Positions 31,555-37,411 of a DNA stretch of 48,420 nucleotides are shown here, piece by piece. A program made the translations under genes and the position numbers. Within the stretch, counting starts at the first letter, position 1; the number at the start of each line of letters is the position of its first letter. The notes under the pieces are model-generated. The model saw only the letters and a program-made list of their open reading frames with translations. It was not told the origin of the DNA and made no database searches. The stretch is from Synechococcaceae cyanobacterium (lineage in GTDB: Bacteria; Cyanobacteriota; Cyanobacteriia; PCC-6307; Cyanobiaceae), in the NCBI GenBank assembly GCA_947461705.1, contig CANHMF010000002.1:1-48420 (forward strand). Reading direction: 5' to 3'.

Positions 31555-33060
31555 ATGACCATGCGCTGTGACGTGGCGGTGGTGGGGGCGGGCATTGCCG
31601 GACTCACCGCTGCAGCCCTCCTGGCCGCGGAAGGGCTGGAGGTGGTGCTGCTGGAGGCCCACAGCCAGAGCGGCGGTTGTGCCGGCACCTTCCGGCGGGG
31701 CGCCTACACCTTTGACGTGGGGGCCACCCAGGTGGCGGGCTTTGAACCCGGGGGCATCCACCAGCGGCTGTTCCGCCATTTCGGGGTGCCGTTGCCGCAG
31801 GCCGCACCCCTGGACCCGGGGTGCAGTGTGTGGCTGGCTGGCGAAACTGAGCCCATCCGGCTCTGGCGTGATCCCCAGCGCTGGCAGGCCGAGCGCCTGC
31901 GCCAGTTCCCAGGGAGTGCTCGGTTCTGGGAGCTGTGTGCGGCCCTGCATCGCAGCAATTGGGCCTTTGCGGCCCGGGATCCTGTGCTGCCCCCCCGCAA
32001 TGGCTGGGATCTGGCCCAGCTGCTGGGGGCCCTGAGACCCGGAACCGTGGCCAGCGGCCTGTTCACGACGGCCACGATCGCCGATCTGTTGCGGCTGAGT
32101 GGCTGCGGTGGGGATCGGCGCTTGCGGCGCTTCCTCGATCTGCAGCTCAAGCTCTATTCACAGGAGCCCGCCGATCGCACCGCAGCCCTCTATGGCGCCA
32201 CGGTGTTGGCCATGGCCCAGGCGCCGCTGGGCCTCTGGCACCTCCAGGGCTCCATGCAGCAGTTGAGCCAGGCCCTGGAGCTGGCCCTGGCCCAGGCCGG
32301 CGGCCAGCTGCGCTTGCGGCACCGGTTGGAGCGGCTGCAGCCCAACCCCCTGGGGGGCTGGAGCCTGGAGGGCGCCGGCCCGGCTCGGCGCCCCTTCCTG
32401 TTGGAGGCTGATGAGGTGGTTTGCACCCTGCCGCCCCAGGCTCTGCAGGGCTTGCTGGGTGCCGCCTTGCCCCGCGCCTATGGCCGCCGGATCGAGGCCT
32501 GCGGTGATCCATCCGGCGCCCTGGTGCTCTACGGCGCCGTGCCCCGGCAGCTGTTGCCCCCCGATCTGGGGCTGCATGCCCAGTTGGAGTGGCGGGATCC
32601 CGGCAACCTGTTCGTGTCGATCAGCGCCGAAGCCGATGGCCGGGCCCCGGCGGGGCAGGCCAGCCTGATCGCCAGCGTGTTCACCCCAGCCCGGCCCTGG
32701 TTCGGCCTGGAGGAAGCGGCCTATCAGCGGCGCAAACAGAAGGCCATGGCGGGAATCCTTGCGGGCCTCGAGGTGCTGCTGGGCCTGAAGCCTGAGCAGT
32801 TTCTGCATGCCGAGTTGGCCACCCCCCGGGGCTGGGCCGGCTGGACCGGCAGGCCCTTCGGCTTTGTTGGCGGATTGGGTCAGCACCCCAGCCGCTTTGG
32901 CCCCTTCGGCCTGGCCAGCCGCACGCCCGTGCCGGGGCTATGGCTGTGCGGTGATGCCATCTATCCGGGAGAGGGCACCGCCGGGGTGAGCCTCTCGGCG
33001 CTGATGGCCTGCCGGCAGTTGCTGGCGCGGCGGGGGCAGGCCCTGGAGATTGGGGCCTAG
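31555..33060 (+). CDS. crtD: Carotenoid 3',4'-desaturase-like oxidoreductase (CrtD family)
   Basis: A 501-aa FAD/NAD(P)-binding protein of the phytoene-desaturase superfamily. N-terminal dinucleotide fold VVGAGIAGLTAAALLAAEGL followed by SQSGGCAGTFRRGAYTFDVG; C-terminal flavin motif GLWLCGDAIYPGEGTAGVSL. Length and sequence fit cyanobacterial CrtD (C-3',4' desaturase in myxoxanthophyll synthesis) better than CrtISO, though related enzymes are hard to separate by eye. Starts MTMRCDV; a second ATG lies at 31561. The stop codon shares CTAG with the convergent tyrA stop. Confidence 0.78.
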   Translation: MTMRCDVAVVGAGIAGLTAAALLAAEGLEVVLLEAHSQSGGCAGTFRRGAYTFDVGATQVAGFEPGGIHQRLFRHFGVPLPQAAPLDPGCSVWLAGETEPIRLWRDPQRWQAERLRQFPGSARFWELCAALHRSNWAFAARDPVLPPRNGWDLAQLLGALRPGTVASGLFTTATIADLLRLSGCGGDRRLRRFLDLQLKLYSQEPADRTAALYGATVLAMAQAPLGLWHLQGSMQQLSQALELALAQAGGQLRLRHRLERLQPNPLGGWSLEGAGPARRPFLLEADEVVCTLPPQALQGLLGAALPRAYGRRIEACGDPSGALVLYGAVPRQLLPPDLGLHAQLEWRDPGNLFVSISAEADGRAPAGQASLIASVFTPARPWFGLEEAAYQRRKQKAMAGILAGLEVLLGLKPEQFLHAELATPRGWAGWTGRPFGFVGGLGQHPSRFGPFGLASRTPVPGLWLCGDAIYPGEGTAGVSLSALMACRQLLARRGQALEIGA

Positions 33061-33914
33061 AGAAACTCCGGCCGCAGGGCCTGAGTGGCGGCGAGGGCCT
33101 GCTCCAGCTGCGGCCACTGCTCGCCCTGCACCAGGGCTTCCAGGCCATCCAGCTGCTGGCGGTAGTGCTGCAGGGCCCCCAGCACGGCCTCGCGGTTGCA
33201 GCGGGCCATCAGGGTGCCCAGCTCCGGGTTGCCGCCACCGATGCGGCTGGTATCGGCAAAGCCGCTGGAGGCCAGGTGCCGCACCAGGGCACTGGCTCCA
33301 GCCGCCGCCCCACCCAGAGCGGCGGCCTCCACCAAGGCGGCACTCACCAGCACGGGCATGTGGGAGATCAGGGCCACGGCCTGGTCGTGGGCGCTGGCCC
33401 CACAGGTGAGCCACTGGGCCCCAACGGCCTCGGCCAACTGCTGCACCGCTGCGAGGGCCGCGGGGTCGGTGCTGGCCTCCGGGGTGGCCACCCAGGGCCG
33501 CCCTTCAAACAGGCCGCGGAGGCCCGCTTCCACCCCTGCCTCCGCAGTGCCGGCCATTGGATGACTCGCCACAAAGCGGTCCAGCTGGCGCCACCGCTCC
33601 AGCACAGGAGCTTTCACGGAGCCCACATCCGTCACCACCGCCGCCGTGGGCAGTGCCGCCAGCAACGCCTCCGGGGGATGGAGCAGCCGGTCTAGGGGCA
33701 GGGCCAGCACGATCAGGCCGCAGTCCCGCAACACGGCGGGATCGGTGCTCACCACGGTGGCCAGCCCGCGCTCCAGGGCCCGTTCGGCGGTGGCGGGCCG
33801 GTGCACCAGGGCCTGCACCCGTGCTCCCTGCGCCAGCAGATCCAGGCCCAGGGAGCCCCCGATCAGGCCGAGGCCCACGATCCCCACGGGGCGCTCGCGC
33901 CACAGGCTGGTCAT
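33057..33914 (-). CDS. tyrA: Prephenate/arogenate dehydrogenase
   Basis: A 285-aa NAD(P)-dependent enzyme of tyrosine synthesis. N-terminal Rossmann motif VGIVGLGLIGGSLGLDL near residue 10, VVTDVGSVKAPVL, FVASHPMAGTAEAGVEAG (active-site His) and LISHMPVLVSAAL. In cyanobacteria the substrate is usually arogenate, with NADP. No ACT or chorismate mutase domain is fused. The stop TAG overlaps that of crtD on the opposite strand within CTAG. It is divergent, 41 nt apart, from the helicase-like gene. Confidence 0.95.
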   Translation of the reverse strand: MTSLWRERPVGIVGLGLIGGSLGLDLLAQGARVQALVHRPATAERALERGLATVVSTDPAVLRDCGLIVLALPLDRLLHPPEALLAALPTAAVVTDVGSVKAPVLERWRQLDRFVASHPMAGTAEAGVEAGLRGLFEGRPWVATPEASTDPAALAAVQQLAEAVGAQWLTCGASAHDQAVALISHMPVLVSAALVEAAALGGAAAGASALVRHLASSGFADTSRIGGGNPELGTLMARCNREAVLGALQHYRQQLDGLEALVQGEQWPQLEQALAATQALRPEFL

Positions 33915-33955: not shown

Positions 33956-35389
33956 ATGTTGGAAGCCCAGGCCCACCAACAGCTCAAGGCACTCCTCCGG
34001 CTGGAGGGGGAAACCCGCTGGCCGCATCACCTCACCCTGAGTCGGTTGGTGGCCCGCAGCTTGCGGCGCGCTGACCAGACCCTGGTGCGTCTGGCTCCGG
34101 GCAGTGATCCCAGTTGGTTGCTGGGCCTGCTGGTGCCCCTGGCCTTGAACGAGCAGCCCGTGGCCCTGGTGGTGAGTGCGGGGTTGCGGCAGCGGTTGCT
34201 GCAGGTGGAGCTGCCACGTCTCCAGGCCGTAGGGCTGCAGTTGCCCTGTTGGGAAGGGCCCTTGGCGCCACCCTCAGCGCGGCTGTGGCTGCTGGACCAC
34301 CAGGGCTTGGTGCGGGCCTGGCGAGAGGGGTTGCTGGACCAGCGTCAGCTGGTGATCCCGGAGGCGGAGCTGCTGGAGCCGTTGCTGCGCGCGGCCCTGG
34401 GGGTGGTGATCGACACCGAGCACTGGGAGCAGTTGCGCCGCAGCCTGCCCGGCGCTGCGTCCAGCCTGTTGCAGCTGCATGAGCGCCTCAGCCGCCGGCT
34501 GTTGGCACGTCCCTGTGGGCCGCTGCAGCAGGCGCCCATCACCCCGGAGGAGGAGGCGCCGCTGCGGCAGCTGCTGGCGGCGCTCGCCCCCCTGCCGGAT
34601 CCCTGGCCCCGCTGGCTGGCCGCCTCCGGCGATGGCTGGACCAGCTGGGCCTGCATCAACCCCACCCTGTTGCAATGGCAGTGGCACCGCCAGCCGCTGG
34701 ACCCCCTGGGGGTGATGGCCGGGCTGCTCCACCAGCGCGGGGCCGTGCTGGTGGGCCAGCTCTCGGAGGCGGCCGGCCGCGGCATGGGCTTTGTGCCCCA
34801 GGTGGAGCTGAGCCTGGCCGATCCGCCCCTGCAGGATCCCCTGCCGCTCTATGCCCCGCCGGCCCAGCCCCTGCCCAACGCCCCCCACTACGGCGAGCAC
34901 CTGCTAGCGCAGTGCCGGCGCCTGGTGTTGGGCCAGGCCGGCCTCACGGTGGTGCTGCTCGACGACGACGGCCTGCGGCGTCAGCTGGCCAGTGGACTGG
35001 CCGCTGAGTTCGGCAGCCGCGTGGGTCACGAGCTCACGGCGCCGGAGAGCAATGGGGTGATCTGCTGCGGCTGGCGCTGGTGGCTCGACCACCAGCACTG
35101 CTTGCCGCTCCCCTGCCAACTGGTGGCGGCCACCCTGCCGATCGCCAGCCTCGAGGATCCGCTCACGGCAGCACGGGTCGCGGCCCTGCGGCTTCAGGGC
35201 CGCGACTGGTTCCGGGAGTTGCTCCTGCCGGAAGCTCTCGGGAGGCTCCAGCGGGCGGTGGCCGGCCTACGCCGCAACGGGGGGCGGCTTGCTGTGCTCG
35301 ATGGCCGCATCAAGCGCCGGGGCTGGGGCCGCCAGGTGCTGGAGGCCCTGGAACCCTGGGTGGCTTTGCAACGGCTGTTGCCCAGCTGA
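33956..35389 (+). CDS. DinG-like helicase homologue lacking Walker motifs
   Basis: A 477-aa protein. The C-terminus (RRNGGRLAVLDGRIKRRGWG then RQVLEALEPW) closely resembles the motif VI region of DinG/XPD-type helicases, and WACINPTLLQWQ resembles their mid region. Where the P-loop should be (about residues 45-60) the sequence is LAPGSDPSWLLGLLVPLAL, without GKT; the DEAH position reads VIPEAELLEPLL. The four iron-ligand cysteines of XPD-type proteins are not seen. It may be a structural or DNA-binding relic, possibly conserved in picocyanobacteria. ATG 33956 was chosen as the first start after the tyrA gap. Confidence 0.68.
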   Translation: MLEAQAHQQLKALLRLEGETRWPHHLTLSRLVARSLRRADQTLVRLAPGSDPSWLLGLLVPLALNEQPVALVVSAGLRQRLLQVELPRLQAVGLQLPCWEGPLAPPSARLWLLDHQGLVRAWREGLLDQRQLVIPEAELLEPLLRAALGVVIDTEHWEQLRRSLPGAASSLLQLHERLSRRLLARPCGPLQQAPITPEEEAPLRQLLAALAPLPDPWPRWLAASGDGWTSWACINPTLLQWQWHRQPLDPLGVMAGLLHQRGAVLVGQLSEAAGRGMGFVPQVELSLADPPLQDPLPLYAPPAQPLPNAPHYGEHLLAQCRRLVLGQAGLTVVLLDDDGLRRQLASGLAAEFGSRVGHELTAPESNGVICCGWRWWLDHQHCLPLPCQLVAATLPIASLEDPLTAARVAALRLQGRDWFRELLLPEALGRLQRAVAGLRRNGGRLAVLDGRIKRRGWGRQVLEALEPWVALQRLLPS

Positions 35390-35443: not shown

Positions 35444-35713
35444 GTGGGAGAAGCCAAGCGCCGTGCAGAGCAGGGTTTGCCGGCCCGGCCCAAGCCTGCC
35501 AAGTCCCCGGCGGCCAAGGGCGCTTCCTCCAGGCCAAAAGACACCTCCCCCCGCATTGCGCCATGGCTGCCCCTCACTCAGCAGCAGGGTGAACAGTTCG
35601 TTCAGGTCACCACCCGCGGGGCCTGGATTGGGATCGCCGCGTTGGTGCTGTTTTGGGTCACGGTGCGGTTTTTGGGGCCTGCCTTGGGCTGGTGGACCCT
35701 CGCCGACGGCTGA
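35444..35713 (+). CDS. DUF2839-family small membrane protein
   Basis: An 89-aa cyanobacterial protein. It starts MGEAKRRAEQGLPAR (GTG start at 35444 with AGAGAGG upstream), the typical N-terminus of the family, and ends in one transmembrane helix within QVTTRGAWIGIAALVLFWVT followed by VRFLGPALGWW. A Lys/Pro/Ala-rich linker separates the two parts. Function unknown. Confidence 0.88.
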   Translation: MGEAKRRAEQGLPARPKPAKSPAAKGASSRPKDTSPRIAPWLPLTQQQGEQFVQVTTRGAWIGIAALVLFWVTVRFLGPALGWWTLADG

Positions 35714-35816
35714 TCCCTGGGTGGGCGAAACCGCACACAGGCCACGCCGGGAGTATTTCTACCCACCGAACTCTGAAGAAAACCTTAGGATTGCCGCACT
35801 CCTCGCTCGAAGGCCG

Positions 35817-36158
35817 ATGTTCGCGCGTCTCGCCGAGCACTACCGATCCGTTGTTGAAGACCTGGTGATGAGCCTGCGTGCTCTCGCCGATGGCCTGCAG
35901 CAGCAGGGAATTGCTGCCACCTGTTACGTCTGCGGCGATGGCCGCGATGGCCATGGCGCCTCCTTCGTGGCCGATCTGGGCGACGGTCACATGGTGCGTT
36001 TTCTGGTGTCCGACTACGGGATCAGCTGGGTGGAATCCCGCAATGGCCATGAACTCGTGAAGTTCGAGGGCGCTGAGGCGATTCAGGAACTCGAGCGTGT
36101 GGCCAAGGCCCTGCGTGAAGACGTGATCTCTGCCGCTTCCCTGGCGAGTCACGCCTGA
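35817..36158 (+). CDS. DUF1815-family cyanobacterial protein
   Basis: A 113-aa soluble protein: MFARLAEHYRSVVEDLVMSL, IAATCYVCGDGRDG, MVRFLVSDYGISWVESRN, KFEGAEAIQELERVA. The order and spacing match the DUF1815 family, small conserved cyanobacterial proteins without assigned function. The two cysteines in TCYVCGD are CxxC-like but a partner pair is lacking. The 103-nt gap upstream probably holds a promoter; a strong hairpin lies downstream. Confidence 0.88.
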   Translation: MFARLAEHYRSVVEDLVMSLRALADGLQQQGIAATCYVCGDGRDGHGASFVADLGDGHMVRFLVSDYGISWVESRNGHELVKFEGAEAIQELERVAKALREDVISAASLASHA

Positions 36159-36241: not shown

Positions 36242-37411
36242 TTAGCCAGCTGCAGGTAGGGCTTCGTCGCTCGTGCTGGCCGCTGTGGCGGAGCCAGCGG
36301 CGGCCAGTTTGGCGGCGGCGGCTGCCACCGGCTTGAGTGAGTCGCTGGTTTCACTCAGCTTCTGGCGCACCTGCACTTCAATCACCTCCTTCTGTGCGGG
36401 GTTCTGCTCCAGCCAGGTGATGGTGTTGTCGCGGCCCTGGCCGATGTTGTCGCCCTCGTAGCTGTACCAGGCCCCTTTGCGCACCACCACGCCGTTCTCT
36501 TCGGCGAGATCCAAGAGGCAGCCCAGGGTGCTGATGCCCCGGCCGAACAGAATGTCGAATTCGGCGATGCGGAAGGGTGGGGCCACCTTGTTCTTGGCCA
36601 CCTTCACCTTGGCGCGGATGCCGTATTCCTCGGTGCCGCGCTTGAGGGTCTGGATGCGCCGGATGTCCAGCCGCACGGAGGCGTAGAACTTCAGGGCGTT
36701 GCCGCCCGTGGTGGTTTCGGGGTTGCCGTAGGTCACGCCGATCTTCTGGCGTAGCTGGTTCAGGAAGATCACCGTGCAGCCTGACTTGCCGATGTTGCCG
36801 GTGATCTTGCGCATGGCCTGGCTCATCAGGCGGGCCTGGCTGCCCACGGCCAGGTCGCCCATTTCGCCCTCGATCTCGGCGCGGGGGGTGAGGGCCGCCA
36901 CCGAGTCCACCACCACGATGTCCACGGCGGCCGAGCGCACCAGCTGATCCACGATCTCCAGGGCCATCTCGCCGGTATCTGGCTGCGACACCAGCAGGTT
37001 CTCGATGTCCACGCCCAGGGCGGCGGCATACACCGGATCCAGGGCGTGTTCCGCATCCACAAAGGCGGCCACGCCGCCGCGGCGTTGCACCTCGGCGATG
37101 GCGTGCAGGGTGAGGGTAGTTTTGCCGGAGCTCTCCGGCCCGTAGACCTCCACCACCCGGCCTTTTGGATAGCCGCCACCCAGGGCCAGGTCGAGGGTGA
37201 GGGCCCCGGTGGGGGTGGTTTCGATCCGCATGCGGGAGGCATCCCCCAGGCGCATGATCGAGCCCTTGCCGAAGTTGCGCTCGATCTGGTTCAGCACCAG
37301 GCCCAGGGCCTTGTCACGTTCGGCGGCGGCGCGGGAATCGCTGGCGGCGCTGGCACGGGCGGATTTGGGATCGGAGGTCTTGAGATCCGAGGTCTTGTCG
37401 TCGGCGGGCAT
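36242..37411 (-). CDS. recA: Recombinase RecA
   Basis: A 389-aa DNA strand-exchange ATPase and SOS coprotease. Walker [16 protein letters not shown], Walker [14 protein letters not shown]1/L2 loops with [12 protein letters not shown] and [15 protein letters not shown]-type sequence ([18 protein letters not shown]). The N-terminal 30 residues are Ser/Asp/Lys-rich and the C-terminal tail is Ala-rich ([17 protein letters not shown]) rather than strongly acidic. A LexA-box match lies about 150 nt upstream. Confidence 0.98.

Follow-up and report, generated by a model that had tools for sequence, protein, structure and literature searches.

The locus and its genes

The window, by which we mean the whole 48,420-nucleotide stretch of DNA that was analysed, has a GC content of 67% and carries one unbroken reading frame of 477 amino acids, running from an ATG codon to a stop codon (Table 1). 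The start codon is very probably correct, since the same M(L/I)E motif opens the orthologues. The product is referred to here as an sDinG (short-type DinG), a kind of protein that was defined in 2025 in a review on the DinG-like proteins of bacteria (PMC11981726). Its closest named relative is the protein of Synechococcus sp. HJ21-Hayes, which is 98% identical, followed by those of Vulcanococcus and Cyanobium. The order tyrA, sDinG, DUF2839, DUF1815, with tyrA on the opposite strand to the other three, recurs in distantly related class genomes, loci L194, L196 and L197 among them. Proximity to recA was seen in picocyanobacteria only, and the remaining neighbours are not repair genes.

Table 1. 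Features of the sDinG locus, with positions in the window
Feature	Position	Strand	Basis
sDinG-type protein, DinG/XPD fold without ATPase motifs, 477 aa	33956..35389	+	ORF, fold, profile match to true DinG, orthologues
Degenerate Walker A, residues 45-56, RLAPGSDPSWLL, Trp54 at lysine position	34088..34123	+	DinG alignment, column counts
Site of missing FeS domain, residues 98-110, short loop	34247..34285	+	gap against E. coli DinG; short strand-to-strand gap in model
Degenerate motif II, residues 133-140, VIPEAELL	34352..34375	+	DinG alignments, column counts
Compact Arch-like helical region, residues about 154-225, limits approximate	34415..34630	+	model secondary structure; position in DinG alignment
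P-motif equivalent, helicase domain 2, residues 394-402, LPIASLEDP	35135..35161	+	aligned with E. coli DinG 614-AFPPID-619; top 7% of conservation windows
Near-invariant DWFR, residues 417-420	35204..35215	+	aligned with E. coli DinG Y636-P637-F638-E639
Degenerate motif VI, residues 431-439, LQRAVAGLR	35246..35272	+	DinG alignments; QxxGRxxR count
Strand after motif VI, residues 443-458, GRLAVLDGRIKRRGWG, earlier taken for motif VI	35282..35329	+	DinG alignments, conservation
tyrA, prephenate dehydrogenase, divergent neighbour	33057..33914	-	Pfam PDH_N, PDH_C; adjacency kept in distant cyanobacteria
DUF2839 small protein, co-directional neighbour	35444..35713	+	Pfam PF10999; synteny
DUF1815 protein, co-directional neighbour, start uncertain	35745..36158	+	Pfam PF08844; synteny
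recA, convergent neighbour	36242..37411	-	Pfam RecA; nearby in 20/20 picocyanobacterial loci checked

Fold and family assignment

A Pfam search with the 477-residue protein gave no significant match. In NCBIfam, the YoaA (E 1.9e-9) and PRK08074 DinG (E 7e-9) models matched residues 389-468 only, and scored far below the curated cut-offs (36.8 bits against 680 for YoaA). A sequence search of the PDB with the single protein found no match, so that a comparison of folds was needed. The family profile could be aligned over 470 columns with one made from true DinGs of its own phylum (E 8e-50, as a single comparison), and over 449 columns when E. coli DinG was used as template (E 6e-43). An AlphaFold2 model built from 41 orthologues had a mean pLDDT of 90.2 and a pTM of 0.88. 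In Foldseek its best PDB matches were the ssDNA complex of E. coli DinG (6FWS, E 5.5e-16) and structures of S. aureus DinG, of CasDinG and of XPD. On the basis of the profile alignments and the structural matches of this predicted model, the SF2/XPD (DinG-type) helicase fold can be regarded as established computationally. Both DinG-type helicase motor domains were recovered, by Foldseek against DinG and by hhalign against the DinG profile, and a short helical region occupies the Arch position, as judged from the secondary structure of the model and not from its coordinates.

An earlier note on this DNA had described the protein as DinG-like and had looked to structure prediction for similarity to superfamily 2 helicases. 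The C-terminal match to DinG/YoaA, the alignment of the profile to true DinGs over almost the whole length and the best structural matches (DinG, CasDinG and XPD) agree with that description.

Loss of the motor motifs

Motifs were counted in 176 distinct members of the family, and 14 true DinGs of the phylum served as the comparison set. None of the 176 members has a Walker A sequence. At the Walker lysine position picocyanobacteria almost always carry Trp, and the other members Tyr or His. In motif II of the window protein, DEAH is replaced by PEAE (residues 135-138); most other members have D-G-x-D, and the DE pair survives in one member (1/176). The earlier observation that the P-loop and DEAH positions are replaced is thus confirmed, with W54 at the P-loop lysine. 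As an account of what has been lost it was incomplete, because motifs III, V and VI and the FeS domain are gone as well. The SAT of motif III was found in a single member (1/176), EGxD of motif V is likewise replaced when the protein is aligned to E. coli DinG, the FeS insert has shrunk to about 13 residues, and neither four Cys in the FeS region nor the motif VI pattern QxxGRxxR occurred in any of the 176. In the true DinGs examined, motifs I, II and VI are intact, with small variations that keep the key residues, and the true motif VI (QGxGRLIR) is intact in all 14.

The earlier note had also stated that a motif VI-like C-terminus is well preserved, which proved to be a misplacement. The stretch it cited, GRLAVLDGRIKRRGWG, aligns with the 'GvVAIlDpRl..KgYG' stretch of DinG, downstream of motif VI, and the position of motif VI itself now reads LQRAVAGLR.

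Distribution and selection

Orthologues were found in 149 of the 150 genomes of the order, essentially in single copy, and a search with the family profile identified sDinG in 166 of the 184 class genomes. Seventeen of the 18 class genomes lacking it belong to one family, here f23, and a class-wide profile also detected no sDinG in the 11 f23 genomes tested. Outside the class, genomes of the same phylum carried true DinGs or nothing, and no sDinG. A phage origin was not indicated, with no match in 50,697 phage records. Rather than standing alone, the protein belongs to a described and nearly class-wide subgroup.

Selection on the gene was measured as omega by the NG86 method. The values were 0.04-0.22 in the 40 closest pairs; among 837 pairs with dS of 0.05-1 the median was 0.35, probably inflated by saturation in GC-rich genes, and the maximum was 0.66, omega being below 1 in every pair. 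For the adjacent tyrA the median in close pairs was 0.31, and sDinG is thus under stronger constraint than tyrA when the closest pairs are considered. Relaxed selection, which the earlier note had named as a refutation of its reading, is not seen. A pseudogene is ruled out and purifying selection keeps the gene, and the proposal of a repurposed helicase fold is upheld by the fold matches, the omega values and the orthologues in the order. The argument originally offered, that a 477-residue frame without stops implies selection, was sound in that the frame is real. Its inference from length is weak, as long stop-free runs are frequent by chance at 67% GC: in order-1 Markov windows of the same size and GC the longest stop-free run had a median of 454 codons, and the 659-codon stop-free run of this gene's frame was reached in 3 of 200. 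Frame length by itself is poor evidence of selection in such DNA, and selection is shown instead by omega and the orthologues.

The small neighbours were considered as obligate partners and rejected. DUF1815 and sDinG are jointly missing in 11/11 tested f23 genomes, but 12 picocyanobacterial genomes have sDinG without DUF1815, and neither of the two therefore depends on the other. DUF2839 stays in f23, where sDinG is gone. The f23 genomes lacking sDinG and DUF1815 and retaining DUF2839 were G171, G185, G198, G220, G231, G240, G249, G263, G274, G298 and G304. DUF1815 is present in most of the class, and several of the 12 sampled picocyanobacterial genomes lacking it are small and Prochlorococcus-sized.

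Origin and other DinGs of the class

In a tree of the C-terminal half, all short forms formed one clade (100/100), with a long stem of 2.0 changes per site and apart from the intact DinGs also present in a few class genomes. Row s_L161 of this tree was mis-cut, giving a false long branch, and was disregarded. The deeper DinG branching was poorly resolved. The simplest reading of the tree is a single, ancient loss of the motor, early in the evolution of the cyanobacterial class.

Intact DinGs of about 630-730 aa occur beside the motorless protein in a few class genomes (L132-L140 and L224-L228; genomes G161, G180, G193, G216, G206, G236, G168 and G226), and the four that were tested form a clade of their own. 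True DinGs occur in sister classes (L211-L220) and in a few class genomes (L224-L228). They are homologous to the window protein over its full length; they differ in having motifs I, II and VI intact and frames of 629-1021 aa, and in falling outside the sDinG clade. No second DinG helicase core was detected in picocyanobacteria in the searches made.

Comparison with known systems

The sDinG of Nostoc sp. PCC 7120 has been modelled with MD1, MD2 and a compact Arch, without an FeS domain and with the ATP site lost (PMC11981726). The same review considers sDinG ATPase activity doubtful, reports no functional study, states that domain 1 lacks its DNA-binding residues and that modelling yielded no more than a partial DNA complex, and gives Nostocales, Chroococcidiopsidales and Pleurocapsales as the only orders with sDinG (PMC11981726). 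The window protein resembles the Nostoc protein in having MD1 and MD2, in the absent FeS domain and in the lost ATP site, and its short helical region at the Arch position may be a compact Arch. It differs in coming from picocyanobacteria, outside those three orders, in having PEAE in motif II as against mostly D-G-x-D, and Trp at the Walker lysine position as against Tyr, and in having a short loop in its model where the Nostoc protein has an extra helix in the ATP site (PMC11981726). More distant class members are homologous to it over the full length and show the same motif losses. Its putative identification as an sDinG rests on an architecture and a set of losses common to both proteins and on distribution within cyanobacteria.

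With E. coli DinG (PDB 6FWR, 6FWS) the window protein shares the fold over the aligned columns and equivalents of the domain-2 P motif and F638, but it is 477 and not 716 aa long and is without Walker A, DEGH/DEAH, motif VI and FeS. ATP hydrolysis or DNA unwinding cannot be expected of it. E. coli YoaA gives the best NCBIfam match for the C-terminal 80 residues. YoaA requires its own ATPase and works with HolC (PMC4636137). The cyanobacteria sampled yielded no HolC: DNA_pol3_chi was detected in 0/39 class genomes, with a positive E. coli control.

A search of the literature on the sDinG subgroup found no experiment of any kind. In the main texts of papers on DNA damage, UV fitness and RB-TnSeq the gene was not recognisable by locus tags guessed from recA.

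Conserved surface of helicase domain 2

Residues 416-425 (DWFR..LLP) fall in the top 2% of conservation windows, the strand after motif VI in the top 4% and the P-motif equivalent in the top 7%, with a below-average value for the Walker A window; the best-kept of the motif-sized stretches compared are thus in helicase domain 2 and not at the former ATP site. DWF[RK] is present in 174 of the 176 members. The ssDNA contacts of E. coli DinG include the P motif (614-AFPPID-619), Y636 and F638 (PMC6300356), and these align with residues 395-400 and 417-419 of the window protein. F638 is kept as F419; the base-stacking Y636 is replaced by D417, with W418 adjacent. DWF is common in true DinGs too and may be structural. 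Other strongly conserved residues (H7, W22, H24, W157 and D449) lie outside the known DNA-contact sites. The conserved domain-2 surface favours a static grip on nucleic acid, in that the P-motif and DWFR stretches are among the best conserved and align with the ssDNA contacts of DinG; it does not prove one, given that DWF is common in true DinGs and that H7, W22, H24 and W157 lie elsewhere.

Proposed function and alternatives

We infer that the window protein, as a member of the sDinG lineage, may act as a static, ATP-independent nucleic-acid-binding protein that combines a domain-2 grip with a platform for partners, a reading to which we give an even chance. An XPD/DinG-fold protein has shed its ATPase motor, its FeS domain and its arginine finger, in the simplest case in a single event, and purifying selection has retained the motorless protein since. 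Helicase domain 2 would still offer the grip of DinG for the 5' side of ssDNA, through the P motif and the DWF patch, and the dead helicase domain 1 together with the compact Arch could serve as a platform for genome-maintenance partner proteins. The fold, the descent from DinG, the motif loss, the retention, the single clade, the alignment of well-conserved domain-2 stretches with the ssDNA contacts of DinG, the lack of another picocyanobacterial DinG core and the nearby recA speak for this explanation; against it are the replacement of Y636, the possibly structural role of DWF, the reported loss of DNA-binding residues in domain 1 and the merely partial DNA complex modelled (PMC11981726), the restriction of the recA vicinity to picocyanobacteria, the other neighbours not being repair genes, and the existence of family f23 without the protein. 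A wider statement, that the motorless helicase is a near-universal, vertically inherited cyanobacterial core protein of single origin, providing an ATP-independent grip on ssDNA or forks and kept in the smallest Prochlorococcus, is put forward more tentatively, at rather less than an even chance.

A pure protein-protein scaffold that binds no nucleic acid, its aromatic patches being partner interfaces or hydrophobic core, is a serious though doubtful alternative. It would account for the many top-conserved residues, D449 among them, that are off the known DNA-contact sites, and fits the reported loss of the domain 1 DNA-binding residues (PMC11981726), but it leaves the P-motif and DWFR stretches, aligned with the ssDNA contacts of DinG, among the best conserved windows. 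That the protein is still an NTP-driven enzyme with an unusual nucleotide site is improbable; the aromatic residue fixed in each clade at the Walker lysine position implies a site that is not unconstrained, yet motifs I, II, III, V and VI have all been lost together and the Walker A window is below average in conservation.

Two mechanisms that are known for relatives or might be supposed for them appear very improbable, being opposed by the lack of a second DinG core and of HolC, respectively. An inactive copy regulating an active DinG paralogue could be imagined in the few class genomes that hold an intact DinG together with sDinG, but picocyanobacteria and most of the sampled class keep sDinG without another DinG core. 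A YoaA-like factor acting through the clamp-loader subunit chi (HolC) would suit YoaA being the top-scoring known family for the C-terminal part, and YoaA does bind chi (PMC4636137); it is scarcely to be expected where DNA_pol3_chi is absent from every class genome searched and where the Walker A and B residues that YoaA itself requires (PMC4636137) are gone. A decaying pseudogene, open by chance, is barely conceivable: long chance stop-free runs are frequent at such GC, but the full-length orthologues throughout the order, omega far below 1 in close pairs, the confident fold and the conserved synteny all oppose it.

Significance

To our knowledge, among pseudoenzymes the kinases and proteases are well studied and the helicases hardly. 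Here, a dead helicase is kept by almost every sampled cyanobacterium, streamlined Prochlorococcus included. Since picocyanobacteria have no active DinG, a knockout could address the use of this dead helicase free of confusion by a paralogue. The automatic label "ATP-dependent helicase DinG" would mislead.

The sDinG kind was already named in 2025 (PMC11981726), and this study adds its picocyanobacterial branch. Also new are its near class-wide spread, reaching into streamlined Prochlorococcus, the measured constraint, the single ancient clade, the lack of an active DinG paralogue in picocyanobacteria, the lack of HolC as a partner, and the correspondence of conserved stretches to the ssDNA site of DinG.

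Additional observations

A picocyanobacterial sDinG (68% identity) is encoded on contig CALPNT020000014.1 (L051), whose label assigns it to a Bifidobacterium breve MAG; the genome is probably mislabelled or contaminated. In two genomes belonging to one genus, separate open frames of about 520 aa matched an ExoDinG-type profile at its N-terminal (exonuclease) end and are without the helicase part (G140:C9:2538-3011 and G439:C24:178438-178917). Additionally, proteins of 839-883 aa with a DEAD-like helicase core were found at L141, L144 and L147 (genomes G283, G256 and G274), with a partial one at L153 (G308). Their C-terminal stretch resembles a PD-(D/E)XK nuclease (for example 'ECKNGATTD'), which suggests that they are possibly defence systems.
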